Shown: positions 6,958 to 20,393 of the stretch, piece by piece | Layout: each line of letters begins with the position of its first letter | How positions within the stretch are numbered: the stretch's first letter is position 1 | Source of the DNA: Rubrivivax sp. | GTDB lineage: Bacteria > Pseudomonadota > Gammaproteobacteria > Burkholderiales > Burkholderiaceae_C | Length of the DNA stretch: 64,000 nucleotides | Assembly: GCA_022842305.1 (NCBI GenBank) | Contig: JALHPY010000001.1 | Coordinates: forward strand, 1 to 64,000 | Direction of reading: 5' to 3' | The notes under the pieces: generated by a model | What the model was told of the DNA's origin: nothing | What the model saw: the letters and a program-made list of their open reading frames with translations, nothing else | Database searches by the model: none | Made by a program: the position numbers and the translations under genes

Positions 6958-8706
<1,749 letters not shown>

Positions 8707-8762: not shown

Positions 8763-8839
<77 letters not shown>

Positions 8840-9488: not shown

Positions 9489-9663
9489 TTGCACCGCGTG
9501 GCCGACCCACCGCGAAACGAAGTTGGATCGGTTCGCTGTCGTCACGCAGAATGCGGCATCTGGGCGGGCTGCTGGGAGCGCTACGCTGGCTGGATGGCAC
9601 TAGCTCATGCTATGAGCCACCCCGGTGCTCTACTCCCCTATATCCGAGAGTTCGCCTCACTTC

Positions 9664-10167
9664 ATGAACACCTTCACTCGAACCCTGTTCTTCCTATCCG
9701 CGATCGCACCGGCGGTGGTGTTGTCTGCCGCTGCGCAGGTCTACAAGCATGGTGGATCGACCCAAGCCTATGGCTGGATTGCCGGCGGGGCTCTGGCATG
9801 CATGTTCCCGTTCTTGGTCATTTGGGCCGCAGCCGCACAGACCGAGGTCCTTGCCTTCAGTGCAAAGAAAGTCGAATCACAAGACTGGCTGCTGGTCGTC
9901 TTTGTCGTGTCCTACTTCATTCCCCTGGTCAGCAACCTGCAGGACCTCGAGGTGCTTGCCCTGATCGCAGTCGTCGCCGCAGTCCTTCTGGCAACGCTCG
10001 ACGCCATCCCCTGCCACCCCATGCTCCATGTGTTCCGCTACAGGTTCTACAAGGTCGAGGGTGCCAACGGCATTGTCTACACGCTGATATCACGTCGACA
10101 ACTGCTCTCCGCGGCGGAGATCAAGTCAGTTCGCCAACTGAGCACACAACTGTTGTTGGAGGGATGA
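9664..10167 (+). CDS. kwaA: Kiwa defence system membrane protein KwaA
   Basis: 167-residue integral membrane protein with about four hydrophobic segments (roughly residues 8-25, 38-58, 74-92 and 95-115) and a basic cytoplasmic C-terminal tail of about 50 residues. It is directly coupled to a DUF4868 (KwaB-type) gene through overlapping stop and start codons, the arrangement of the two-gene Kiwa anti-phage system, in which the membrane protein KwaA senses phage attack and KwaB acts as effector. Membrane proteins of this kind are poorly conserved, so the call leans on topology, size and partner. ATG 9664 is chosen as the first Met before the first membrane segment. Local base composition is less GC-rich than the nif genes, in keeping with transfer. 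Confidence 0.7.
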   Translation: MNTFTRTLFFLSAIAPAVVLSAAAQVYKHGGSTQAYGWIAGGALACMFPFLVIWAAAAQTEVLAFSAKKVESQDWLLVVFVVSYFIPLVSNLQDLEVLALIAVVAAVLLATLDAIPCHPMLHVFRYRFYKVEGANGIVYTLISRRQLLSAAEIKSVRQLSTQLLLEG

Positions 10168-11039
10168 TGTACACGCTCTTTGCCTACACCCGCGACCCGA
10201 AGAATCGAATTGTCAGATTCGCTGTGAACGACGACGTCCAGACATCGATGACCGCCTACCTGAGCAAGCAGGTCGAGGCATTCGGCAACGGCTGCGAAGA
10301 AGTGGCGTTCGACGGGAACTACAAGCCCGACGATGGCGAGATGCTCGTCATTGACGGGTTCGAGGACCTGGACAACCTGGCCAAGGTTGTCGCCTCGCCG
10401 CTGGACGTGCCGATTGCCGATCCCGCTAACCTGGACTTCGACCAGATCAGGGCGCTGTTCTTCGGCCACAAGGAAGGGGATGGCGCGTGGACGGTCTACC
10501 TGCAGAGCTTCGACCGGCGCCGCGTGATCTCCTCGGCGGGGTTCTCGATCTTCCACTCTAAGGACACGTACAAGCGCATTGAGGGATCAGGTCTCACCCT
10601 CGACAACAAACTCGCAGCACGGCTCCGCGGCACCAAGCTGTCCTTCTTCAGCTTCTTCCATGTCCGTCAGATCTTCGACATGTCGAGCTACTACCAGGAG
10701 GCCACCGACAACGACATCAAGTCTTTCGCGGCTCTCAAGGAATTGCATGTCGACAACACCGACGAGTTGGTGGCCGCCAGTGACACCTGGGTCCGCCGCA
10801 AGGTCTGGCTGGTCATGCAGAGCAACATTCTGGGCAAGGTACCACCCAGTGACATAAAGGCGATCGCCGCGGAATTCAAGATCCCGGTCGAGTACGTAAA
10901 TCATGGCGGCAACGAGAAGCTCAAGCTACCCGGTGACAAGAAATCGCTAAAGACGCTGTTGCGCTTCCTAGATGAGGACTACTACAAGTCGCCGCTGTCG
11001 AAGACGAACTACCTCACCAACTCTAAGCGGGCAGTCTGA
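10167..11039 (+). CDS. kwaB: Kiwa defence protein KwaB (DUF4868)
   Basis: Soluble 290-residue protein of the DUF4868 family, the effector of Kiwa. Family-like features are the N-terminal FAVNDDVQTSMTAYLSKQV region, a long central mixed alpha/beta region (VISSAGFSIFHSKDTYKRI), and a conserved C terminus with LRFLDEDYYKSPLSKTNYL and a terminal NSKR. Start: ATGATG at 10164-10169 overlaps the kwaA stop TGA; the second ATG gives better spacing from GGAGG at 10158-10162, but 10164 is also possible. Overlap implies translational coupling with kwaA. A hairpin at 11121-11149 ends the unit. The DUF4868 call is from recalled family signatures, not an alignment. Confidence 0.75.
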   Translation: MYTLFAYTRDPKNRIVRFAVNDDVQTSMTAYLSKQVEAFGNGCEEVAFDGNYKPDDGEMLVIDGFEDLDNLAKVVASPLDVPIADPANLDFDQIRALFFGHKEGDGAWTVYLQSFDRRRVISSAGFSIFHSKDTYKRIEGSGLTLDNKLAARLRGTKLSFFSFFHVRQIFDMSSYYQEATDNDIKSFAALKELHVDNTDELVAASDTWVRRKVWLVMQSNILGKVPPSDIKAIAAEFKIPVEYVNHGGNEKLKLPGDKKSLKTLLRFLDEDYYKSPLSKTNYLTNSKRAV

Positions 11040-11154: not shown

Positions 11155-11586
11155 CTACAGATGCACTATCTCAACATCCGACCATTTGTCTTTGAGGTAC
11201 TCGGCCACTAGCCGGCGATGGCAGTGATGCGGCTTGTCTTCGCTGCAAAGAAGGCACCCTCCGTCCAACTGGTTGCGGTCTAGGGTTTCAATGCGCCGCT
11301 TTCCCATGAGGTCCACAAACTTCGCGGCATAGCTGTCCCAGTCGCCACCATCCTTTTTGTATGCATCAAGCATGTCTTGGGTGGGCGCGAGAGCGGGAAC
11401 ATGTTCGTAACCCATTCCGCATAGGGCCCCGGTGAAGTATTTGAGATCGTCGCGCTTCGCAAAGCCCGCCAACTGCGAGATGTTGTTGAGACGAACATCA
11501 ACGAGACGCTTAGCGCCCGAGTCCTTGAGGCGGGTGAAGAAGCGCTGCGCAGTTGTCTTGGTAAATCCGATTGTGAATATCTTCAT
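11155..11586 (-). CDS. DUF488 family protein (short copy)
   Basis: 143 residues, starting MKIFTIGFTKTTAQRF, the usual DUF488 opening. It keeps VDVRLN (second strand, aspartate and arginine) and the C-terminal CSEDKPHHCHRRLVAEYL, with the family's C-x7-CHR signature. DUF488 proteins have a Rossmann-like fold; their biochemical activity is not established. It is the last gene of a minus-strand operon and overlaps the preceding longer DUF488 gene by 4 bp (ATGA). Two different DUF488 proteins together with a dual-OB protein is a recurring set in mobile DNA. Confidence 0.85.
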   Translation of the reverse strand: MKIFTIGFTKTTAQRFFTRLKDSGAKRLVDVRLNNISQLAGFAKRDDLKYFTGALCGMGYEHVPALAPTQDMLDAYKKDGGDWDSYAAKFVDLMGKRRIETLDRNQLDGGCLLCSEDKPHHCHRRLVAEYLKDKWSDVEIVHL

Positions 11587-12215
11587 CTTAAGTAGTCTCT
11601 TTGTTCTGCCCCAGCTTCGACCCGGCGACTTGGAGCAGCGCTCCTGTCATAGGCAATGAGTTGCCCTTGCCTGTCGTAGGCAAGTTCGACAGCGGCTTCT
11701 CGCGGCCTAAACATGTCTTCGGCGCCGATGCCCAGTTGGTCGATAAGACGCGTCATGGCGGCATCGTGAGACTCAAGCGCGCCGGTCTGCAAGATATGCG
11801 TCACTGCGACGCCATCCCTCACGAGCTCTCGCGATACAAGGATCGTGCGATGACAGTCGAGCGGATCTTTCTCTGCGCACATTAGCGCGATGCGGTACTT
11901 CTTAGCCCCGTCGATGACCCGCTTGATTCCAGCTCGGAACAGGTCTGTTTCAGAGAGCTTCTGATAGCTGACTCTTTCGTGAACGTAGCAGCATTCATCA
12001 TCGCTTCTCGCTCCAAGCTCCTTGCCGAGGAACACATAGCTGATGGCTTCCTGCTTGAGCGACTCACGGAGGCTTTCGCGATTGAACTGAGGGTTGTGCC
12101 GGCTGTACGGCGCGGACCGCACATCCGCTATCGCGGATATCTCGTGACGCTTCAGCAGCCCGATGAATTGCTCTAGCGGCTGCGTTGAGTGGCCTACGGT
12201 GAAGACCTCAAGCAT
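11583..12215 (-). CDS. DUF488 family protein (long copy)
   Basis: 210-residue DUF488 protein. The N terminus reads MLEVFTVGHSTQPLEQFIGLLK, then IADVRSAPYSRHNPQFN (the conserved DVR-x-P-x-S block), ISYVFLGKELGAR, and near the middle CAEKDPLDCHRTILV with the C-x7-CHR motif. The C-terminal 50 residues are an extra tail not present in the shorter neighbour. Its start overlaps the end of the dual-OB gene by 8 bp and its stop overlaps the second DUF488 gene by 4 bp, so the three are almost surely translated together. Function unknown; the genomic setting (next to Kiwa and a TcmP pair) suggests a role in conflict with phages or plasmids. Confidence 0.88.
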   Translation of the reverse strand: MLEVFTVGHSTQPLEQFIGLLKRHEISAIADVRSAPYSRHNPQFNRESLRESLKQEAISYVFLGKELGARSDDECCYVHERVSYQKLSETDLFRAGIKRVIDGAKKYRIALMCAEKDPLDCHRTILVSRELVRDGVAVTHILQTGALESHDAAMTRLIDQLGIGAEDMFRPREAAVELAYDRQGQLIAYDRSAAPSRRVEAGAEQRDYLR

Positions 12216-12915
12216 GCGCTGCCTCGCATCGTTGCTGAGTAATCAAAGAGGCAATCACACGGAAGCTGAAGCCGTGGAACACCTCAACAAGGCTGATGCA
12301 GAGAACCGCATCGCCAACTGGATAGGCCCCTTCGCCACGCTGTAGATACGCGTCTTCCAACTCGGCATCGCTCACCGAAAGGATGTAGGTCTGGCGCTGG
12401 TAGGTGAATCGCCCGCGAACCTTCTTCTTGCCGGGCTTTCCCTGCCAGCCGTCTTCGAACTGCACGCGGAGCTCAAGGTCCGACACATGGATCAGCTTCA
12501 GCGAGCTCCGGAACCGCAGAACGTCCGCCTCAGCGATCTTGTCGTTCAAGCCGTTCTGAGTGCTTTGCGAGTGCGCCCAGAATCCTGCTTCATGGCCGTC
12601 AACGCATGCCAGCACGTTGACCCAGGAAGCAACCCCGACCTTTTGCCAATACTCGGCGGCGTGCAGGACATGGTTCTCCTGCTGAAAGTCGAACGGACTG
12701 GGTCTCAGCAACGGCATCTTGATGATGTCGAGCACTTGCGCCAGGCGGCCATTGGGATAGCGTCGATCGGCTTCGGACACTTCATGTGTCGGCCGTTCGC
12801 TGACAGGGCGAAGCCAGGCACCGGCCGCGCCGGCGTTCCACACCTTGCCGGCAATGCACCGGCCCTGCGGCGGTTTGCGCGAGTTGGCCAAGCACAGGAT
12901 CGTTTGTTCGTACAT
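12208..12915 (-). CDS. Putative dual OB-domain protein
   Basis: 235 residues; opens MYEQTILCLANSRKPPQGRC followed by GAWLRPVS, a pattern I associate with proteins annotated as dual OB domain-containing that travel with DUF488 genes. The rest is rich in short beta strands (LELRVQFEDGW, KVRGRFTYQRQTYILSVSD), compatible with two OB folds and hence nucleic-acid or oligonucleotide binding. The frame is open 12 codons further upstream, but ATG 12915 has GGGAGA just before it. It overlaps the long DUF488 gene by 8 bp. The domain name is from memory and has not been checked by profile search. Confidence 0.6.
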   Translation of the reverse strand: MYEQTILCLANSRKPPQGRCIAGKVWNAGAAGAWLRPVSERPTHEVSEADRRYPNGRLAQVLDIIKMPLLRPSPFDFQQENHVLHAAEYWQKVGVASWVNVLACVDGHEAGFWAHSQSTQNGLNDKIAEADVLRFRSSLKLIHVSDLELRVQFEDGWQGKPGKKKVRGRFTYQRQTYILSVSDAELEDAYLQRGEGAYPVGDAVLCISLVEVFHGFSFRVIASLITQQRCEAAHA

Positions 12916-12951
12916 TCTGTCTCCCTCGTCACCAAAATGCCCTGTTCTCAA

Positions 12952-13233
12952 CTACTCCACAAGCTCAATCTGAATGCGGCGGCCTACCAGCGCCGCTGCG
13001 CGCTGCAGCGTGGACAGGGTGACATCACTTGCCGAGTCCAGCAGTCTGTCAACCTGGGAGCGGCTAGTGTTCAGCAGTGCGGCCATCCGCGCCTTGGAGA
13101 GTGACTGCTCCTTCATGGCCGCGACAATCTGCAAAGCAATCGCTTCCTTGACCGCGCGGCTCTGGGCGCTCTCGAGAGCCCCGTCGTGCCTTGAAGGGCC
13201 TGCAGCGGCCGAATCGGGTTGAAGTCTTGCCAT
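12952..13233 (-). CDS. XRE/HigA-like helix-turn-helix protein
   Basis: 93 residues with a Cro/CI-type HTH in the C-terminal half: LSKARMAALLNTSRSQVDRLLDS, then VTLSTLQRAAALVGRRIQIELVE. This arrangement is common in HigA/XRE antitoxins and small repressors. No toxin gene of RelE/HigE type lies next to it on the same strand, so it may instead regulate the six-gene minus operon in which it sits (between tcmP and the dual-OB gene, gaps of 109 and 36 bp). The first Met of the conserved part was chosen; the frame is open upstream and no strong ribosome-binding site decides the start. Confidence 0.7.
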   Translation of the reverse strand: MARLQPDSAAAGPSRHDGALESAQSRAVKEAIALQIVAAMKEQSLSKARMAALLNTSRSQVDRLLDSASDVTLSTLQRAAALVGRRIQIELVE

Positions 13234-13342
13234 CTGCACACTCAGCTTGCCAGCCCAATATGTACCATAGAAAGTGCATGCAGGCCAGCCCGCAGGCGGC
13301 CGGAGGGTCAGGTGCGAGACCACCCCGGAACCATACCCGGGC

Positions 13343-14617
13343 TCACGCCAGGAAGAGCTTTGCCTGCCAGTTGGTCTCGATCTTGTCGCCGTCGACCATG
13401 TAGCGCGCAAGTCGTCGCGGCTTACCGTCATGGCTCGTTATGACGATGTCTCCCTCGCCTACCAAGCGTTCGAGCGCCACCTTGTACATGTGGGCAGTGG
13501 CAGGTGAGCCGTTGCAGGTCTGCGCATATATCTCTCCCAACAGACCCGGACCAGGCTGACTGCGTACCAGCGCCCCCAGCTGCTCGACCAAAGCGCTATC
13601 CGATTGGTGCCGAGCCACGTCGTCGAATCGGAAACCACCGTCGAACTCCTGCATAAACCCCATGGTCTGCGGGGCAAGCATGTCTAGTCCAGCGCCACCA
13701 TAGTGGATGAAGTGGTTCTGATGGCCCCAGTGGACCTGCTTCATCACATCCTGTGCGCGTGGATGCTGAGACAAGTGCACCAGCCAGTACTCGCCGTGGC
13801 CCGATCCCGTGCCCCGTATGAAAAACGGGGTGAAGAAGCGCGCACCGCAACCAGTCACGAGCGCTTGATAGAGAGCGCCCTGGATAAACCTTCTCCAGTC
13901 GGCGTCGTTCTGCTTTACGTCGTCTATGGACCTGCCCCCAAGCGCCTTGCGGATATCTACCTGCAGCGTCTGACTGATGCGCTCGACTAGCTCGTCATTG
14001 GTGTAAGTGGCGAACGAAGATACATGAAACGTCAGCACTACCTCGCTGTTAGGCAACTCACTGAAGATGCGTCGAATAAGGGTCGACGGCACGTCCGTGT
14101 ACCCATATTGATCGAGAAAGAAGATCGCCGTCGAAGCTCGCGGAGTATGCTTCTTCACAAGAGCCAAGGCCCCATCGGCTGCGCTGATGAACTCGGCGCA
14201 GACCAGATGAATCGACTTGCCGATTAGGTGACCGTAGTCACGCGCCGTAAGTTCAGCGGTCAGTTGCCGAATCGCCTTTGCATCCTTGTCGATAAACAAG
14301 AACTGAACGTCTAGCTCAATTGGTTTGGTTCTGTCCTTGTTGACTAGGACGCTCGCTTCTTCGACCGCCTTGAGCATGCGAATCGGCGACCCGACGACTT
14401 CCCTGTCCGTTCCGCGAAGGTAATAAACGCCTCCGCCGCAGAATCCATCAACAAGCGTGATGCGGAATCGTTCTGCACCTCGGCGATTTAGCGTGCGCTG
14501 CGCAAAATAGGCTCGCAAGTATTCAACCAGCACACTGTGCTTGGTTAGGCTGTGCTCATCAATCTGCGCTCTGCCCTGCTCCCAATCGTAGTGTCTCTTG
14601 CTCACGCTGCCTTTCAA
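13343..14617 (-). CDS. tcmP: Three-Cys-motif partner protein TcmP
   Basis: 424 residues. The N-terminal half has a methyltransferase-like Rossmann pattern: FRITLVDGFCGGGVYY (residues about 50-66), VQFLFIDKDAKAI and AIFFLDQYGYTDVP, all typical of TcmP. The C-terminal half looks like a winged-helix region (ALERLVGEGDIVITSHDGKPRRL). TcmP is defined by its pairing with a three-Cys protein of the phage Gp37/Gp68 type, and that partner is exactly the preceding gene, 15 bp upstream. The activity of the pair is not established; co-occurrence on mobile DNA suggests nucleic-acid or nucleoside modification or defence. Family call is confident, function is open. Confidence 0.85.
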   Translation of the reverse strand: MKGSVSKRHYDWEQGRAQIDEHSLTKHSVLVEYLRAYFAQRTLNRRGAERFRITLVDGFCGGGVYYLRGTDREVVGSPIRMLKAVEEASVLVNKDRTKPIELDVQFLFIDKDAKAIRQLTAELTARDYGHLIGKSIHLVCAEFISAADGALALVKKHTPRASTAIFFLDQYGYTDVPSTLIRRIFSELPNSEVVLTFHVSSFATYTNDELVERISQTLQVDIRKALGGRSIDDVKQNDADWRRFIQGALYQALVTGCGARFFTPFFIRGTGSGHGEYWLVHLSQHPRAQDVMKQVHWGHQNHFIHYGGAGLDMLAPQTMGFMQEFDGGFRFDDVARHQSDSALVEQLGALVRSQPGPGLLGEIYAQTCNGSPATAHMYKVALERLVGEGDIVITSHDGKPRRLARYMVDGDKIETNWQAKLFLA

Positions 14618-14632
14618 CGTTAGGAGCGAATG

Positions 14633-15493
14633 TTACGACGTGGAATGCGTGCTTGGGAATTGATCCCAATGGCGGCCGGCAAGCTCCCTACCGGACTTTC
14701 CCTTACCGAGGCCGGCCAGCCTGACTTCAACATCATCTACTTTGATGATGCGAATTGCCGTCTTGCCCGCAACGGACTGCAGCGCATCAATCGGACCCCA
14801 GTGTCCCCACTGCTTGAAATGAAACGGCACGCGTGCCTCTTGACACTGCTGGCGAAGGTCCTCAGGCCAGTGAGGCTCCATTGGCCTCGCACCTGCTCCC
14901 GACTCCCCGCCAGCTATTACCCAGTCAATTCGAGTGCCGCGGTCACCCTTGGTCAGATACGGGCGAAGGTCGATCGCGCCAAGAAGAGGCTCACAAGAGA
15001 CGAATCGAACTGAGGGCGTCTTGAAGGCGAGCAAGTAGTCAAGCCGCTTGCCGGCCGACCGCTCATCTTCAACGGTTGTCCCCAGCCACACATTGCGCGG
15101 AAATTCGTACCCCTTCGGCAGTTGCTTACGTACCAGATGAATCCGCTTGGTCAGCAACAGCCAGTCGAGATGTGGAGTTCGTCCGATCAGGTCAAAAAGG
15201 CGAAGCCTGTGAGGAACCAGATCCTTGCGGTTCTCAAACACGTCCGCCATTGACGCGCAAAACACGCGACGGCGTTCTCCCGAGGCCTCCGCGTCCTTGT
15301 TCCATCGCACCGGTTGGTTCCAATGCGCGTTCCCGAAGAAGCGCCGCCCACTGTGTGGCCCCCAGACATCCGTCCCTAGGCGACGCGCCCACGCCTCAGC
15401 GTAGCAATGGTCGCAAGCGGCCGACACCTTCACACAACCCCACCAAGGGTTGAATGTGTGGTGCGTCCACTCGATCCGCGAGTCCTTTCCCAT
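14633..15493 (-). CDS. Phage Gp37/Gp68 family three-Cys protein (DUF5131)
   Basis: 286 residues. The start has IEWTHHTFNPWWGCVKVSAA followed by the rest of a three-cysteine cluster, C20-x6-C27-x2-C30, which gives the three-Cys family its name and resembles a radical-SAM-type iron-sulfur site. Further family blocks are GRRFFGNAHW, VFCASMADVFE, WLLLTKR, NVWLGTTVE, RFVSCEPLLG and DWVIAGGESG. The ATG at 15493 places the Cys cluster at the N terminus, as in homologues; an upstream open extension of 83 codons is not conserved-looking. It leads the minus-strand operon with tcmP. The chemistry is unknown; a radical-SAM-like mechanism is inference from the cysteine spacing. Confidence 0.85.
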   Translation of the reverse strand: MGKDSRIEWTHHTFNPWWGCVKVSAACDHCYAEAWARRLGTDVWGPHSGRRFFGNAHWNQPVRWNKDAEASGERRRVFCASMADVFENRKDLVPHRLRLFDLIGRTPHLDWLLLTKRIHLVRKQLPKGYEFPRNVWLGTTVEDERSAGKRLDYLLAFKTPSVRFVSCEPLLGAIDLRPYLTKGDRGTRIDWVIAGGESGAGARPMEPHWPEDLRQQCQEARVPFHFKQWGHWGPIDALQSVAGKTAIRIIKVDDVEVRLAGLGKGKSGRELAGRHWDQFPSTHSTS

Positions 15494-15955: not shown

Positions 15956-16262
15956 CCGTGGCAGCGCTCTTCATGCGCGACCCCGGTGGTGGCGGAGCAC
16001 GCAGTTTGCGGGGCCCAGCCTGCAGGCTCGCCGTGCGTGCCTGCGCTGGCGGCGCCGCGCAGAACTGCCAGCAGATCGGCGCCTGTGCAAACGCCGGTAC
16101 AACGCAGGCGTGATGCCGCGCAGTCGGGGCATCAATCTGCAGGCGCATGCTGCGCGCAGAACGGCGCCACACGTTGCTGCCGCCGTTCAACCTCGGGTTT
16201 CCGATCGGCCTGGAGCAGCCTTCGATCAGGGCACCGCCGTGGCGATCGGCACAATCGTGACC
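15956..16262. other. Gene-free stretch before DUF6880 gene
   Basis: About 300 bp between the hydrolase remnant and the DUF6880 start. Open frames exist here only because of high GC; none has a recognisable domain, and none has a convincing start. It probably includes more decayed hydrolase sequence and the promoter of the DUF6880 gene, neither of which can be placed. Confidence 0.35.
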
Positions 16263-17693
16263 ATGGCCGCCCGCAAGGAAGAACTCGACGCTTTCATCCG
16301 CCGACAAGATGCCGGCGCCCTGGCCGACGTGCTGCTGGAACTGGCTGAAGCCCATCCGGCCGTGCAGAAGCGCCTTGCGCGCATGCAACTTGCGGACAAG
16401 CCGGACCGCCTCGCCGCTACTTTCCGCAAGACCCTCGCCGGCTGGCGCAGGCAGAACCGGCTCCTCGACTACCGGGACAGCCAGGAATGGGGCGCAGAGG
16501 CCCAGGCCTGGCTGGCCCAGATCGAGCGCGAGCTTCTGCCGCGTGACCCCATGGCCACAGTCGAGCTGGTGGGTTCCTTCATCGAATGCGATGCGAAGTT
16601 CTTCGACCGCGCAGACGACTCCAGTGGATGCATCGGCAGCGCCATGCGTGCGGCGTGTCGCCTCTGGCTGGAAGCCGCTGCCCGCTGTGAGACGCCGTCC
16701 GAGATGTGGCCCGCTCGTCTGCAGCAGCTGTTCGCTGGAGATCGCTACGGCGCCCGGGAGCCCCTGCTCCTGCAGGCCAACCTGCTCTTGTCCGAGGCCC
16801 AGCTTTGGCAGCTCGTCGCAGGGTACGAGCGCCAGGTCGACAGCGCACCGCCGGTCTCCGGCCCCTGGGAAGCTTCAAGTCCTGATGCCAGGTCGGCCTT
16901 CGTCGCGCTGACCCTGCTGTCGCACGCCCTGCGCGATCCGGACGTGCACGTAAGGGCCACGTTGCGCCGCAGCCCGCGGCCCAACTCGAGGCAGAAGCAG
17001 GAGTTCGTGCTTCAGTACCTCGACGTCGACCGGCCCGCCGACGCCCTGCGCTGGCTGGATGACGAGGCTGACTGGCACCCGCACACCCGGCTGCGCCTGC
17101 TGGCCGAGACCCTCAGGCGCCTGGGGCACACCGACCGCAGCGCGCCGGTGCAGCAGCAGGTGTTCGAACAGACGCTGAGCGTCGAGGACTTTCGGGGCTG
17201 GCTGGGGCATCTGGCGCCACCAGAGCAGACCGGGGCTCTCGCCCGTGCCCGTCAACTCGCCCTCGACCACGACGATCCGGTCACCGCCGCCCGCTTGCTG
17301 GTGGAGATCGAATGCTGGGACGATGCCGAGCAGGTGCTCGTCGCGGAGCAGGCCCGCATCACCGGTCAGGACTATGTCTGGCTCGTGCCGCTGGCGAAGT
17401 CCCTGGAGACGCAGCAACGCTGGCGCGGCGCGACCGCCGTTTATCGGGCGCTGCTCGATGCCATCCTCGCCAAGGCACATGCCCCCGCCTACGGGCACGG
17501 AGCGCGCTACTGGCACGGGCTGAATGCGATCGCCGCCCAGGCGCCGGAACTGATGCCGCTGCAGCCGCACGACGCCTATATCGCCGTCATCCGAAGGAAG
17601 CACGCACGCAAGGTCGCGTTCTGGGCCCAGGTCAACAAAGGGACGACCGCCGCGGCCGACGACGGCGGCAGGGACGACACAGATGATGCGTAG
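16263..17693 (+). CDS. DUF6880 family protein
   Basis: 476 residues, mostly alpha-helical. It starts MAARKEELDAFIRRQDAGALADVLLELAEAHP, matching the N-terminal helix pair of DUF6880 proteins. The rest is a series of helix pairs that look like tetratricopeptide-type repeats (ARQLALDHDDPVTAARLLVE, AEQVLVAEQARIT, AKSLETQQRWRGATAVYRAL), then a tail ending in an acidic Asp-rich stretch. Related proteins often have SWIM zinc-finger partners or domains; none is seen here. The ATG was chosen because conserved sequence begins there. A hairpin overlapping the stop codon may end transcription. Function unknown; a scaffold role is a guess from the repeats. Confidence 0.65.
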   Translation: MAARKEELDAFIRRQDAGALADVLLELAEAHPAVQKRLARMQLADKPDRLAATFRKTLAGWRRQNRLLDYRDSQEWGAEAQAWLAQIERELLPRDPMATVELVGSFIECDAKFFDRADDSSGCIGSAMRAACRLWLEAAARCETPSEMWPARLQQLFAGDRYGAREPLLLQANLLLSEAQLWQLVAGYERQVDSAPPVSGPWEASSPDARSAFVALTLLSHALRDPDVHVRATLRRSPRPNSRQKQEFVLQYLDVDRPADALRWLDDEADWHPHTRLRLLAETLRRLGHTDRSAPVQQQVFEQTLSVEDFRGWLGHLAPPEQTGALARARQLALDHDDPVTAARLLVEIECWDDAEQVLVAEQARITGQDYVWLVPLAKSLETQQRWRGATAVYRALLDAILAKAHAPAYGHGARYWHGLNAIAAQAPELMPLQPHDAYIAVIRRKHARKVAFWAQVNKGTTAAADDGGRDDTDDA

Positions 17694-17705
17694 CGTAGCG
17701 CATCA
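17684..17705 (+). terminator. Hairpin overlapping the DUF6880 stop codon
   Basis: TGATGCG (17684-17690) and CGCATCA (17699-17705) form a seven-pair stem with an eight-base loop that contains the TAG stop. It is followed by GATTT. This is a weak but plausible intrinsic terminator or mRNA end structure. Confidence 0.45.
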
Positions 17706-17762
17706 GATTTCAGGCCCGGTGCAACCCACCCAGACGCTCGGCTTCAGCAAGGCCACCTGACC

Positions 17763-18209
17763 ATGGGCTGGTCATCCCGCTTGTTCCTGTTGTCGGGCGA
17801 CGATGCACTGCACCGCCTGACCGGCACGGCCTACACCCGGATGCTGAAGGCGCAAGCCCCGTGCCGCGTGCCGGACTTCGCCGGGCAGAGGGCACGTCTG
17901 GCCGGCGTCACCGTCGAGACCGCGGACGGCATCGCTCTCGGCGTGCGCCACATGAGCTTCTCTGTCCTCGAGTTCGACGCCGACGGCCTGCTCGACGTGC
18001 AGCGTCTCAACGTCCAGCAGGTGGCCCGTCTCGATACCCTGCTGGCCGGGGTGCTCGGACCTAAAGCGGCGGAAGTGACGGTGGTTGACGCCGCGAACCG
18101 CTTCCGCGCCCGCGGGGGTGCTTGGGAACCGGACCGCCCCCTGCGGCGGCGCCTGGAGGCCGCGGCGCTCGGCCTTGGTCACTACCCCCGCGTGAGGGTC
18201 GTCGACTGA
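17763..18209 (+). CDS. Hypothetical protein, island-associated
   Basis: 148 residues starting MGWSSRLFLLSGDDALHRL. It contains alternating strands and helices (VPDFAGQRARLAGVTVETAD, HMSFSVLEFDADGLLDVQR, VTVVDAANRFRARGG), no membrane segment and no known catalytic motif. It follows the DUF6880 gene by about 70 bp in the same direction, so it may be expressed with it if the stop-codon hairpin is leaky. I do not recognise the family. Coding is supported by even codon use, consistent hydrophobic periodicity and a compact start. The 250 bp after it contain no recognisable gene. Confidence 0.6.
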   Translation: MGWSSRLFLLSGDDALHRLTGTAYTRMLKAQAPCRVPDFAGQRARLAGVTVETADGIALGVRHMSFSVLEFDADGLLDVQRLNVQQVARLDTLLAGVLGPKAAEVTVVDAANRFRARGGAWEPDRPLRRRLEAAALGLGHYPRVRVVD

Positions 18210-18459
18210 CCGCAGGCTGATTGCGACAAACGGCCAAGCCGCAGAGACAGTTCGCCGGGGGCTCCAGACCAGTGGCGGACTTCCCGATAGGTTGAGTTGC
18301 TCTCTCGACTGGCGGATCACTGGCCTGCAAGAACGCTCGACGTGGTCGCAGGTTTCGCCGATCCACCGGCCGACTGACCGTTCGCCGCCTTCTGGTGCCG
18401 CAGGTTGCAGTTCTTCGTCGACGAGTAGGTCGGCTGAAGCCTCTCGTTGCTACACATCT

Positions 18460-18696
18460 CTATCGCTCGACAGCGTTGCCCGGACTGTCCTCTCTGTCAG
18501 GGAGGTGCTCAAAGAGTTCGCCGACGCCCACATTGAACAGCCTGCAGAGCTTGTCGATGGCGTCCAAGTCCACCCTGACAGCCGTCTCGTCGTACAGCAG
18601 GGTCACGGTATTGCGATGGAGTCCGGTTTCACGCGCCACATCGATGACCTTCATCTTCCGTTCGCCCATGTACCGGGACAAGTGGCACTTGATCAC
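18460..18696 (-). CDS. Cro/CI-type repressor of the integration module
   Basis: 78-residue single-domain HTH protein: GERKMKVIDVARETGLHRNTVTLLYDE then VDLDAIDKLCRLFNVGVGELFEHLPD, the pattern of small Cro/CI-family regulators that sit divergently from excisionase-integrase genes. The GTG start at 18696 is preferred because CGGAG lies just upstream on this strand; the open frame runs further but through promoter DNA. It faces away from the excisionase gene, and the gap holds a strong promoter and repeated sequences that look like operators. It probably represses xis-int and itself. Confidence 0.8.
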   Translation of the reverse strand: MIKCHLSRYMGERKMKVIDVARETGLHRNTVTLLYDETAVRVDLDAIDKLCRLFNVGVGELFEHLPDREDSPGNAVER

Positions 18697-18716
18697 AACA
18701 CGCTCCGAGAAAAAAA

Positions 18717-18819
18717 GTCGCTCAGAATGAAGAAAATTCTTGACAAGTGTCTGTGGATCGATATACTTTATCCAAGACGACACAAACACATAGCTAGTGA
18801 GTTTTTGTCGCTCAGATTG
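18717..18819. repeat. Direct repeat pair flanking the xis-int promoter
   Basis: GTCGCTCAGAATG (18717-18729) and GTCGCTCAGATTG (18807-18819) differ at one base and lie 90 bp apart, flanking the strong promoter. A perfect odd palindrome CAAGTG-G-CACTTG lies nearby inside the start of the repressor gene (about 18679-18691) and CTTGACAAG overlaps the -35 element. These are the best candidates for repressor or excisionase binding sites. Confidence 0.5.
18740..18767 (+). promoter_or_regulatory. Strong sigma70 promoter for excisionase-integrase
   Basis: TTGACA (18740-18745), a 16-bp spacer and TATACT (18762-18767): near-consensus -35 and -10, reading toward the excisionase gene 78 bp downstream. 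The surrounding DNA is unusually AT-rich for this window. A palindromic CTTGACAAG overlaps the -35 box, consistent with repression. Confidence 0.8.
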
Positions 18820-18844
18820 TCTCACAAGGCATGGAGAGCTGAAA

Positions 18845-19084
18845 GTGCAAAACGCAACCTACCTGACGACTGACGAGCTTTCGGCTCGCATCAAGTACGA
18901 CCCGCGGACCATTCGAGAGCGGCTGAAGGACAGTGTGCTGCTGGAAGGCATCCACTACATCCGCCCATTCGGTGGCCGCAAGATTCTGTACGTCTGGGAG
19001 GCAATCAACCGCGACATGGCGACCGCCTCGTCGCACGACAGCTCGTCAATTCCTATGGCTAGCGGAGGTGTCCTCCATGGGTAG
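18845..19084 (+). CDS. Excisionase-like winged-helix protein
   Basis: 79 residues; the core NATYLTTDELSARIKYDPRT, then RERLKDSVLLEGIHYIRPFG and KILYVWEAINRDM, is a MerR-like/excisionase winged helix, as in small AlpA/Xis factors beside integrases. The GTG start at 18845 has GGAG at 18833-18836. It overlaps the integrase start by 8 bp. It should bind near the attachment site to direct excision, or activate the integrase gene. Family-level call from fold pattern and position; no exact homologue is recognised. Confidence 0.75.
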   Translation: MQNATYLTTDELSARIKYDPRTIRERLKDSVLLEGIHYIRPFGGRKILYVWEAINRDMATASSHDSSSIPMASGGVLHG

Positions 19085-20393
19085 CGTCCGTGCACGTCGA
19101 GACAACGGCCTGCTCTTTCTCGACTTTCGCTTTCAGGGGCGGCGCAGCCGCGAGCAGACACTGCTCGAAGACACGCCAGCCAACCGCAAGAAGGTGGAGA
19201 AGATGCTGGCAACGCTCGAAGCCCAGATCGCCGCAGGCACTTTCGTCTACGAAAAATTCTTCGGCACTAAGCAGCGGCCGCAGGCAGGCAAGGCGGTACC
19301 ACCGGTTCAAGTCGCCGCGACTGCACAGGGCGTCCAGGTCCTGACGGGTGAGGCGGCCCTCACTTCGAAGGACACGCCCACCTTCGCGGCCTTCGCCCAG
19401 CAATGGATGCGCGACCACGAAGTCGAATGGCGCCGCTCCCACATCAAGGTGCTGCGCTCGACAGTGGATGGCCACCTGGTGCCGCACTTCGGCGCCAAGC
19501 CCGTGGGCAGCATCACCAAGGCCGACATCCTGGCCTTCCGCACCAAGCTGGCCTCGCTGCCCGGCCGCGCCGGCAGTGGCGGCCTGAGCAACAAGCGCCT
19601 GAACGGCATCTTGGCGCCGTTGCGCCAGATGCTCAACGAGGCCGCCGAACTGCACGGCTTCGTATCTCCGGTGACCACGCTCAAGCCGCTGAAGGTGCGC
19701 AAGACCGACGTCGAGCCCTTCACGCTGGATGAGGTGGAACTCATGCTCAAGACCGTGCGCCCGGACTACCACGACTACTTCAGCGTGCGCTTCCTCACCG
19801 GCCTGCGCACCGGCGAGGCCCACGGCCTGAAGTGGAAGTACGTGGACTTCGACAAGCGCCTCATCCTCGTGCGCGAGACCTTCGTGCTGGGCGAGGACGA
19901 GTACACCAAGACCGACGGCTCGCAACGCGAGATCCACATGACCCCGGTCGTCCACGACGCGCTCAAGCGCCAGCACCAGGCCACCGGCCAGTTGTCCGAG
20001 TACGTCTTCTGCAACCGTGAAGGCAAGCCGCTGGACAACAAGAACTTCACCGACCGGGTGTGGATCCCGCTGCTGCGCCACCTGGGCCTCAAGCCCCGGC
20101 GCGCCTACCAAATGCGCCACACCGCGGCCACGCTCTGGCTGGCCTCGGGCGAGGCGCCCGAGTGGATTGCCCGTCAACTCGGCCACAGCAGCACCGAGAT
20201 GCTGTTCCGCGTCTACAGCCGCTACGTCCCCAACCTGACCCGCCAGGACGGCTCGGCCATCGACCGCCTGCTGGCCAGCCGTTTTGCCGGTGAGACGCCG
20301 CCGGCCGCCAAGGCCGAGAGCGCCGCCGCGACCAAGGCCCAGCCCCCGCCGGTCCCGCTGCGGCCGGCGGCTCTGACCCAAGCCCCGCCCTAG
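19077..20393 (+). CDS. int: Tyrosine recombinase integrase
   Basis: 438-residue site-specific integrase of the phage/island type. The N-terminal part (residues 1-60) has an arm-DNA-binding fold typical of the DUF3596 group (VRARRDNGLLFLDFRFQGRR); the core-binding domain spans about 115-210; the catalytic domain spans about 220-390. Catalytic residues: Arg244 in TGLRTGEAHG, Arg347 in YQMRHTAA, His in LGHSS and nucleophile Tyr380 in FRVYSRY. The His of the usual HxxR box is Tyr344 here, a change seen in this group. ATG 19077 follows GGAGG at 19064-19068. The Ala/Pro-rich tail (about 410-438) is likely disordered. It should recombine the island at its attachment site; the tRNA-fMet gene 10 kb away is one candidate. 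Confidence 0.93.
   Translation: MGSVRARRDNGLLFLDFRFQGRRSREQTLLEDTPANRKKVEKMLATLEAQIAAGTFVYEKFFGTKQRPQAGKAVPPVQVAATAQGVQVLTGEAALTSKDTPTFAAFAQQWMRDHEVEWRRSHIKVLRSTVDGHLVPHFGAKPVGSITKADILAFRTKLASLPGRAGSGGLSNKRLNGILAPLRQMLNEAAELHGFVSPVTTLKPLKVRKTDVEPFTLDEVELMLKTVRPDYHDYFSVRFLTGLRTGEAHGLKWKYVDFDKRLILVRETFVLGEDEYTKTDGSQREIHMTPVVHDALKRQHQATGQLSEYVFCNREGKPLDNKNFTDRVWIPLLRHLGLKPRRAYQMRHTAATLWLASGEAPEWIARQLGHSSTEMLFRVYSRYVPNLTRQDGSAIDRLLASRFAGETPPAAKAESAAATKAQPPPVPLRPAALTQAPP

Follow-up and report, generated by a model that had tools for sequence, protein, structure and literature searches.

Two probably separate candidate anti-phage gene sets and an apparent orphan HigA-type antitoxin gene beside Kiwa in a Rubrivivax genome

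Related candidate systems and the six-gene block

Among the candidate anti-phage systems listed by PADLOC, those closest to the genes considered here are PDC-M30 and PDC-M41, to which adjacent genes for DUF5131 and TcmP proteins correspond, and PDC-M45, whose components M45A, M45B and M45C are matched by a dual OB-containing protein (DuOB) and two DUF488 proteins. Counterparts of all these genes stand together in a block of six in a 64,000-nucleotide stretch of DNA from Rubrivivax sp. (NCBI GenBank assembly GCA_022842305.1, contig JALHPY010000001.1, positions 1 to 64,000 of the forward strand; hereafter, the window), which a preliminary description had interpreted as one new composite defence system. 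Based on sequence comparisons, we consider it likely that the block holds two separate, already listed candidate anti-phage sets side by side next to the Kiwa genes, together with an orphan HigA-type antitoxin gene that has its own predicted promoter.

PDC-M30 is reported from 32 strains of P. aeruginosa, 68.8% of which are resistant (PMC10855318), and a TcmP gene is listed beside the Hna helicase gene of Sinorhizobium (PMC12445080). In the literature that we searched, neither PDC-M45 nor PDC-M41 was mentioned by name, and no tested function was found for the DUF488-N3a domain. The DUF488-N3 systems of the rhodanese/phosphatase superfamily are reportedly regarded by Burroughs and Aravind, in work of 2023, as predicted DNA-end-processing conflict systems; their likeness to the window lies in the Pfam domains DuOB and DUF488-N3a, which both have in common.

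The features of the block are given below in the order of the minus strand, with E-values after the names of the models. The DUF5131 and TcmP genes are called set 1; the DuOB gene and the genes for the long and short DUF488 proteins form set 2, or the trio.

14633-15493, minus strand: DUF5131 (Gp37/Gp68-like) protein, 286 amino acids, with C-x6-C-x2-C; set 1; PF07505 E 1.5e-79, PADLOC PDC-M41B 1.7e-54, PDC-M30B 2.9e-53
13343-14617, minus strand: TcmP, 424 amino acids, TTG start, C-terminal GMT-like winged helix; set 1; TIGR04474 E 3.5e-63, 214 bits (cut-off 53), PF22560, PDC-M30A 2e-19
13259-13277, minus strand: operator/promoter-like site of HigBA type within the 109-bp gap; highest-scoring of 127,964 positions, the matrix being built from 11 homologous toxin-antitoxin (TA) loci
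12952-13233, minus strand: HTH_37 protein, 93 amino acids, apparently a HigA-type antitoxin without a toxin gene; HTH_37 E 3.2e-06, 27.3 bits (cut-off 27)
12898-12916, plus strand: runner-up place of the operator motif, at the DuOB start codon; weak and noticed post hoc; 13.1 bits versus 16.6 for the best
12208-12915, minus strand: DuOB protein, 235 amino acids; set 2; PF22557 E 9e-63, PDC-M45A 1.5e-79
11583-12215, minus strand: long DUF488 protein, 210 amino acids; set 2; PF04343 E 1.5e-25, PDC-M45B 2.2e-85
11155-11586, minus strand: short DUF488 protein (DUF488-N3a, 'active DUF488-N3 subclade'), 143 amino acids; set 2; PF04343 E 1.5e-23, PF22751 2.8e-10, PDC-M45C 1.1e-73

The coordinates of the open reading frames (ORFs) bear out the preliminary description in the six minus-strand genes, their order and their spacing (three gaps, of 15, 109 and 36 bp, and two overlaps, of 8 and 4 bp). 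Its 'XRE-type HTH' is indeed a helix-turn-helix (HTH) regulator between the two sets, but the family is HTH_37, the kin of HigA-type antitoxins. The three genes of set 2 match M45A, M45B and M45C, adjacent and in order, and the window differs from PDC-M45 by the orphan HTH_37 gene ahead of the trio, a gene detected at no other DuOB locus of the survey below. In set 1, the adjacent DUF5131 and TcmP genes match both M30A/B and M41A/B; TcmP is closer to M30A than to M41A (3.2e-07), whereas DUF5131 fits both alike, and a DUF5131 protein with the three cysteines adjoins a TcmP above the cut-off. Thus, the genes proposed as one new system match two different PADLOC candidates; without this distinction, known candidates would be mistaken for a single new system.

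Survey of the two sets

We surveyed 122 loci (80 genome, 36 viral and 6 plasmid loci, the last from 15 plasmid records in which DuOB was found); for the genomes, scanning with the short DUF488 alignment gave at least 567 relatives, the top 80 of which were retained. In 49 of the 122 loci (5 plasmid, 27 genome and 17 viral), DuOB is flanked by 5 kb or more on either side, and none of these 49 has the six-gene order of the window. DUF5131 and TcmP were found in two of them, each time encoded on the other strand from the trio; the survey models used were grown from two seeds and overlooked some divergent TcmP, such as those in L254 and L257 (L numbers denote our loci). In the Agrobacterium plasmid locus L003, the pair is convergent with the trio with 252 bp between them, and in the Sorangium locus L035, it is divergent from the trio with approximately 2 kb between them. 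Four further whole-genome DuOB loci (L270-L273, one of which is 7.7 kb in all) contain neither DUF5131 nor TcmP.

The reverse survey gave a similar picture. TcmP above the cut-off is present in 20 of 369 genomes of the class (the window's own included). At the 20 TcmP places above the cut-off outside the window, DUF5131 was found nearby in 19 and DuOB in none, within flanks of at most 8 kb either way, less on some contigs. Four close plasmid TcmP loci all have DUF5131, and none has DuOB. DuOB itself is rare: it is present in two of 198 genomes among the relatives and in five of 398 genomes of the phylum, with the window's own genome included in each count, and it had no match in phage records. 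Where all three genes of set 2 are present, the order DuOB, long DUF488, short DUF488 is kept in 53 of 54 genome loci. Across the loci that we examined, the genes of each set stay together, and the two sets are normally apart.

The preliminary description had made its composite system depend on both sets occurring together elsewhere. They do so at the two loci above; the shared order, however, was not seen outside the window. Its single shared transcript is not supported, given the separation of the sets in other loci, the opposite strands at both meetings and the TA-type operator-like site in the gap. What does stand is that both sets are real, largely uncharacterized, found on plasmids and viral contigs, and listed by PADLOC as phage-defence candidates; relatives of both DUF5131 and the short DUF488 protein occur on viral contigs. 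The meeting of the two sets in two of 49 loci fits a shared residence in defence islands. Genes of the cyclic oligonucleotide-based antiphage signaling system (CBASS) are present in L003, genes of clustered regularly interspaced short palindromic repeats (CRISPR) systems (cas1, csx16, csm6 and a RAMP protein gene) in L005, and a NotI-family restriction-modification pair in L006; no such annotated defence neighbour is present in the stretches seen of L004 and L007.

The HigA-type gene between the sets

Of 150 genomes of the order, 22 (the window's own among them) have a homologue of the HTH_37 protein; among the other surveyed loci that hold set 1 or set 2, none was found to have the gene. In each of the 10 best homologous loci (L306-L315), the gene immediately upstream encodes a RelE/ParE-type toxin, and a toxin match was obtained in 15 of the 19 loci searched. 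The window resembles HigBA-type TA systems in the antitoxin kinship of HTH_37 and in the operator/promoter-like site upstream, and differs from them in the toxin gene, of which there is none in the window: tblastn of the Sphingomonas toxin gave a 33-residue match alone (E 0.23), at 34 kb. In 11 homologous loci, a site of the form GTACC-N6-GGTAC-AT precedes the toxin gene. With the matrix built from these 11 sites, positions 13259-13277, inside the gap between tcmP and the HTH gene, rank first in the window at 16.6 bits, and they also rank first in all 11 leave-one-out runs; an equal score was reached in one of 587 strand segments of the gap's length. Single-stretch shuffle tests of the 11 upstream stretches against the gap were mostly unremarkable, the best value being 0.005 for L245.

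Since the best match of the operator motif lies inside this gap, a second promoter is likely. The preliminary description had tied its single transcript to the lack of a separate promoter between tcmP and the DuOB gene, and the support for such a promoter comes from the motif. The HTH_37 gene thus seems best read as an antitoxin gene that lost its toxin and kept its predicted promoter. To judge from the motif, the orphan HigA would repress set 2's own promoter at the retained operator/promoter-like site. An orphan antitoxin gene with its operator at the junction of two sets can therefore mimic a shared regulator.

Possible roles of the two sets

DUF5131 and TcmP probably modify nucleic acid jointly: DUF5131 would be a radical enzyme resembling radical S-adenosylmethionine (SAM) proteins, and TcmP a SAM-methyltransferase-like protein with a winged helix. 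The three cysteines of C-x6-C-x2-C (DUF5131 residues 20-30) are invariant in 37 aligned members, and all 37 proteins match TIGR04471, the model of radical SAM mobile pair protein A, with E-values of at most 0.001; the match starts at model position 11-19 in four of the eight members listed. A DGFCGGG loop is visible in TcmP, whose profile reached a best E of 0.18 against PDB sequences. DUF5131 seemed akin to Gabija anti-defence protein 1 when a two-sequence profile was used (E 0.0075), but the match disappeared with the 37-sequence profile and was rejected as due to chance. In the nearest plasmid relatives, a second, shorter TcmP gene stands beside the pair (L241:5059-5883, L242:5146-5970, L243:8281-9126); in L241, its product resembles D12 methyltransferases very weakly (E 0.28). 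No such gene was seen among the neighbouring genes of the window pair.

The role of set 2 is probably DNA-end or lesion processing, in which the trio would bind DNA via the OB domains and process DNA ends or lesions via the DUF488 domains. The nucleic-acid chemistry suggested for both sets in the preliminary description is plausible. Against PDB sequences, the best E was 0.049 for the DuOB profile and 0.17 for that of the short DUF488 protein. Motif counts on greedy ORFs gave 114 of 123 for the short DUF488 pattern, 44 of 78 for the long and 66 of 93 for DuOB; we claim no catalytic residue because low counts may stem from the patterns or from the choice of ORFs. As for a conserved regulator of the trio, an HTH gene paired with ImmA/IrrE was found in four loci alone (L003, L089-L091), two of which have an identical short DUF488 protein, and this candidate was rejected.

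In a second variant of the trio, a DUF4326 protein takes the place of the long DUF488 protein, with a minimal SLOG domain in L007. Genes for the SOS response associated peptidase (SRAP) adjoin this variant at L002:266-913 (L092 is the same sequence), L115:3174-3863 and L117:8416-9171, another tie of this family to DNA damage. On the viral contigs L097-L110, the variant is often near recurring genes, one of which resembles the phage terminase large subunit by eye. A search for the variant in E. coli found stretches of DUF4326 alone, in four of 5,426 genomes. In the Gallionella locus L018, the trio lies between a partial uvrB-like stretch (7717-8439, query residues 8-248) and a uvrB-like stretch at 12750-14078 that is cut by the contig end.

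We also considered 18 genome loci that have a short DUF488 gene without DuOB or the long DUF488 gene (solo loci). Genes for UvrA or UvrB were found in 12 of these (L009-L016, L026, L027, L039 and L040) versus one of 92 DuOB loci, a comparison between loci of different lengths in which some DuOB loci are short. Similarly, formaldehyde genes (FdhA, FrmA, FrmR or iron alcohol dehydrogenase) were found in 10 of the 18 solo loci versus none of the 92 DuOB loci, whose lengths again differ. Six solo loci (L028, L031, L058, L068, L073 and L080) have neither kind of gene. The independent cases are fewer than 12 because several are the same mobile DNA (L009 and L010; L011, L014 and L016), identical over 3.8 kb. 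The presence of UvrA/UvrB beside the solo short DUF488 gene fits the DNA-end or lesion processing role of set 2. Annotated examples include DUF488 followed by uvrB on Aeromonas and Comamonas plasmids, and UvrA-DUF488-frmR on a Klebsiella IncC plasmid. Mobile formaldehyde-tolerance islands with a solo short DUF488 gene and uvrB or uvrA were seen at L335:5001-7784, L337:2158-6072 and L338:5001-7734, and the Shinella plasmid locus L336 has neither UvrA/UvrB nor formaldehyde genes. In a tree built from few columns, 12 solo rows form a group (support 100/98) whose sister is the window's copy (99/78), inside a set that also holds trio copies; rows labelled as trio included the solo loci L010, L014 and L016 and DUF488 loci without DuOB, and statistics based on these labels are set aside here. 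In the literature that we searched, the one paper that mentions both DUF488 and formaldehyde appeared to be unrelated.

If these observations are joined, the trio would be a machine for processing DNA lesions or DNA ends that acts against invading DNA, mobile formaldehyde-tolerance islands would have acquired the short DUF488 protein from this lineage, to work there with dedicated UvrA/UvrB on DNA adducts, and the window trio would in addition have captured a HigA that lacks its toxin, operator included, as a switch for induction. We regard this as a speculation with rather low odds of being correct as a whole. The solo loci give DUF488-N3a a concrete setting, namely formaldehyde-type DNA damage beside UvrA/UvrB, which could also explain the role of the same domain in a defence set.

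Weighing of the alternatives

A true composite defence operon would have the two sets co-transcribed and cooperating under the common control of the HTH protein, so that nucleic acid modified by one set is read or processed by the other. The closely spaced co-directional genes with two overlaps, the lack of a terminator-like site in the gap and the meetings in L003 and L035 speak for it. However, the order recurs in none of the 49 flanked DuOB loci, both other meetings are on opposite strands, DuOB is at none of the 20 TcmP places, and the HTH gene is not found in other surveyed loci with either set and carries a TA-type operator-like site. This reading, which we consider improbable, is not supported, and the members of both sets are already known as PADLOC candidates. 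Several observations nevertheless weigh against two independent sets with the promoter and roles suggested above. The six genes all point the same way with little space between them, and a general promoter scan of the tcmP-HTH gap found no sigma-70-like site and no terminator-like site, so that read-through from tcmP is possible. The operator sites in the 11 homologous loci were picked by eye. Two meetings in 49 loci exceed random placement (a rough estimate of about 0.02 under an assumed genome size). As to the chemistry, the canonical radical SAM motif CxxxCxxC is absent from DUF5131, which has C-x6-C-x2-C in its place, the window protein matches TIGR04471 weakly (28.2 bits, far from the curated cut-off of 355 bits), and a search at E 1 gave no Pfam methyltransferase family for the window TcmP.

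Two further explanations concern the junction and the function of the sets. The orphan HigA may be a captured switch that represses the DuOB-DUF488 genes from the old TA operator, perhaps also from the site at the DuOB start, and that is removed on stress or infection, so that set 2 becomes inducible. The intact gene with the window's best operator match just upstream and the runner-up place at 12898-12916 are consistent with this, but the HTH gene is not found beside other surveyed DuOB loci, the second site is weak and was noticed post hoc, and the gene may be a mere relic; we therefore hold such a switch to be possible but on balance doubtful. It is about equally doubtful that neither set serves defence and that both consist of repair or accessory genes that belong to mobile elements and occupy the same islands as defence genes. 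The short DUF488 gene alone beside UvrA/UvrB and formaldehyde genes, the SRAP genes beside the DUF4326 variant and the relatives of DUF5131 and the short DUF488 protein on viral contigs would agree with such a function; however, Kiwa in the window, CBASS in L003, CRISPR in L005 and the restriction-modification pair in L006 argue for defence, as does the listing of both sets by PADLOC. Thus, we favour two separate candidate defence sets with an orphan HigA-type antitoxin gene.

Genomic setting

The position of the block beside Kiwa, as given in the preliminary description, agrees with PADLOC matches to both Kiwa proteins. Both genes are on the plus strand and convergent with the short DUF488 gene.

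9625-10167, plus strand: KwaA (Kiwa); PADLOC KwaA 2.6e-43
10173-11039, plus strand: KwaB (Kiwa), approximate start; PADLOC KwaB 5.2e-99, the domain being residues 229-515 of the ORF 9489-11039
8763-8839: tRNA-Met

In 1-kb windows, the guanine-plus-cytosine (GC) content is 0.56-0.61 across approximately 9.5-16 kb versus 0.64-0.70 on either side. The two candidate sets, probably independent, are placed head-to-tail in this lower-GC block near tRNA-Met, beside Kiwa. A duplicated tRNA end as a mark of the island was looked for and rejected: the 46-base tRNA-end stretch matched itself alone, with 25/46 as the next best, and neither a second copy nor the island borders were found. In a site-synteny search of the genus, the query had matches in 59 of 60 genomes, often confined to its tRNA part. 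Beyond the block (16110-20393), there are a DUF6880 gene at 16110-17693, an HTH_26 regulator gene at 18460-18825 on the minus strand and a tyrosine integrase gene at 18933-20393, near which another low-GC stretch (0.58-0.60) spans 18-19.5 kb.

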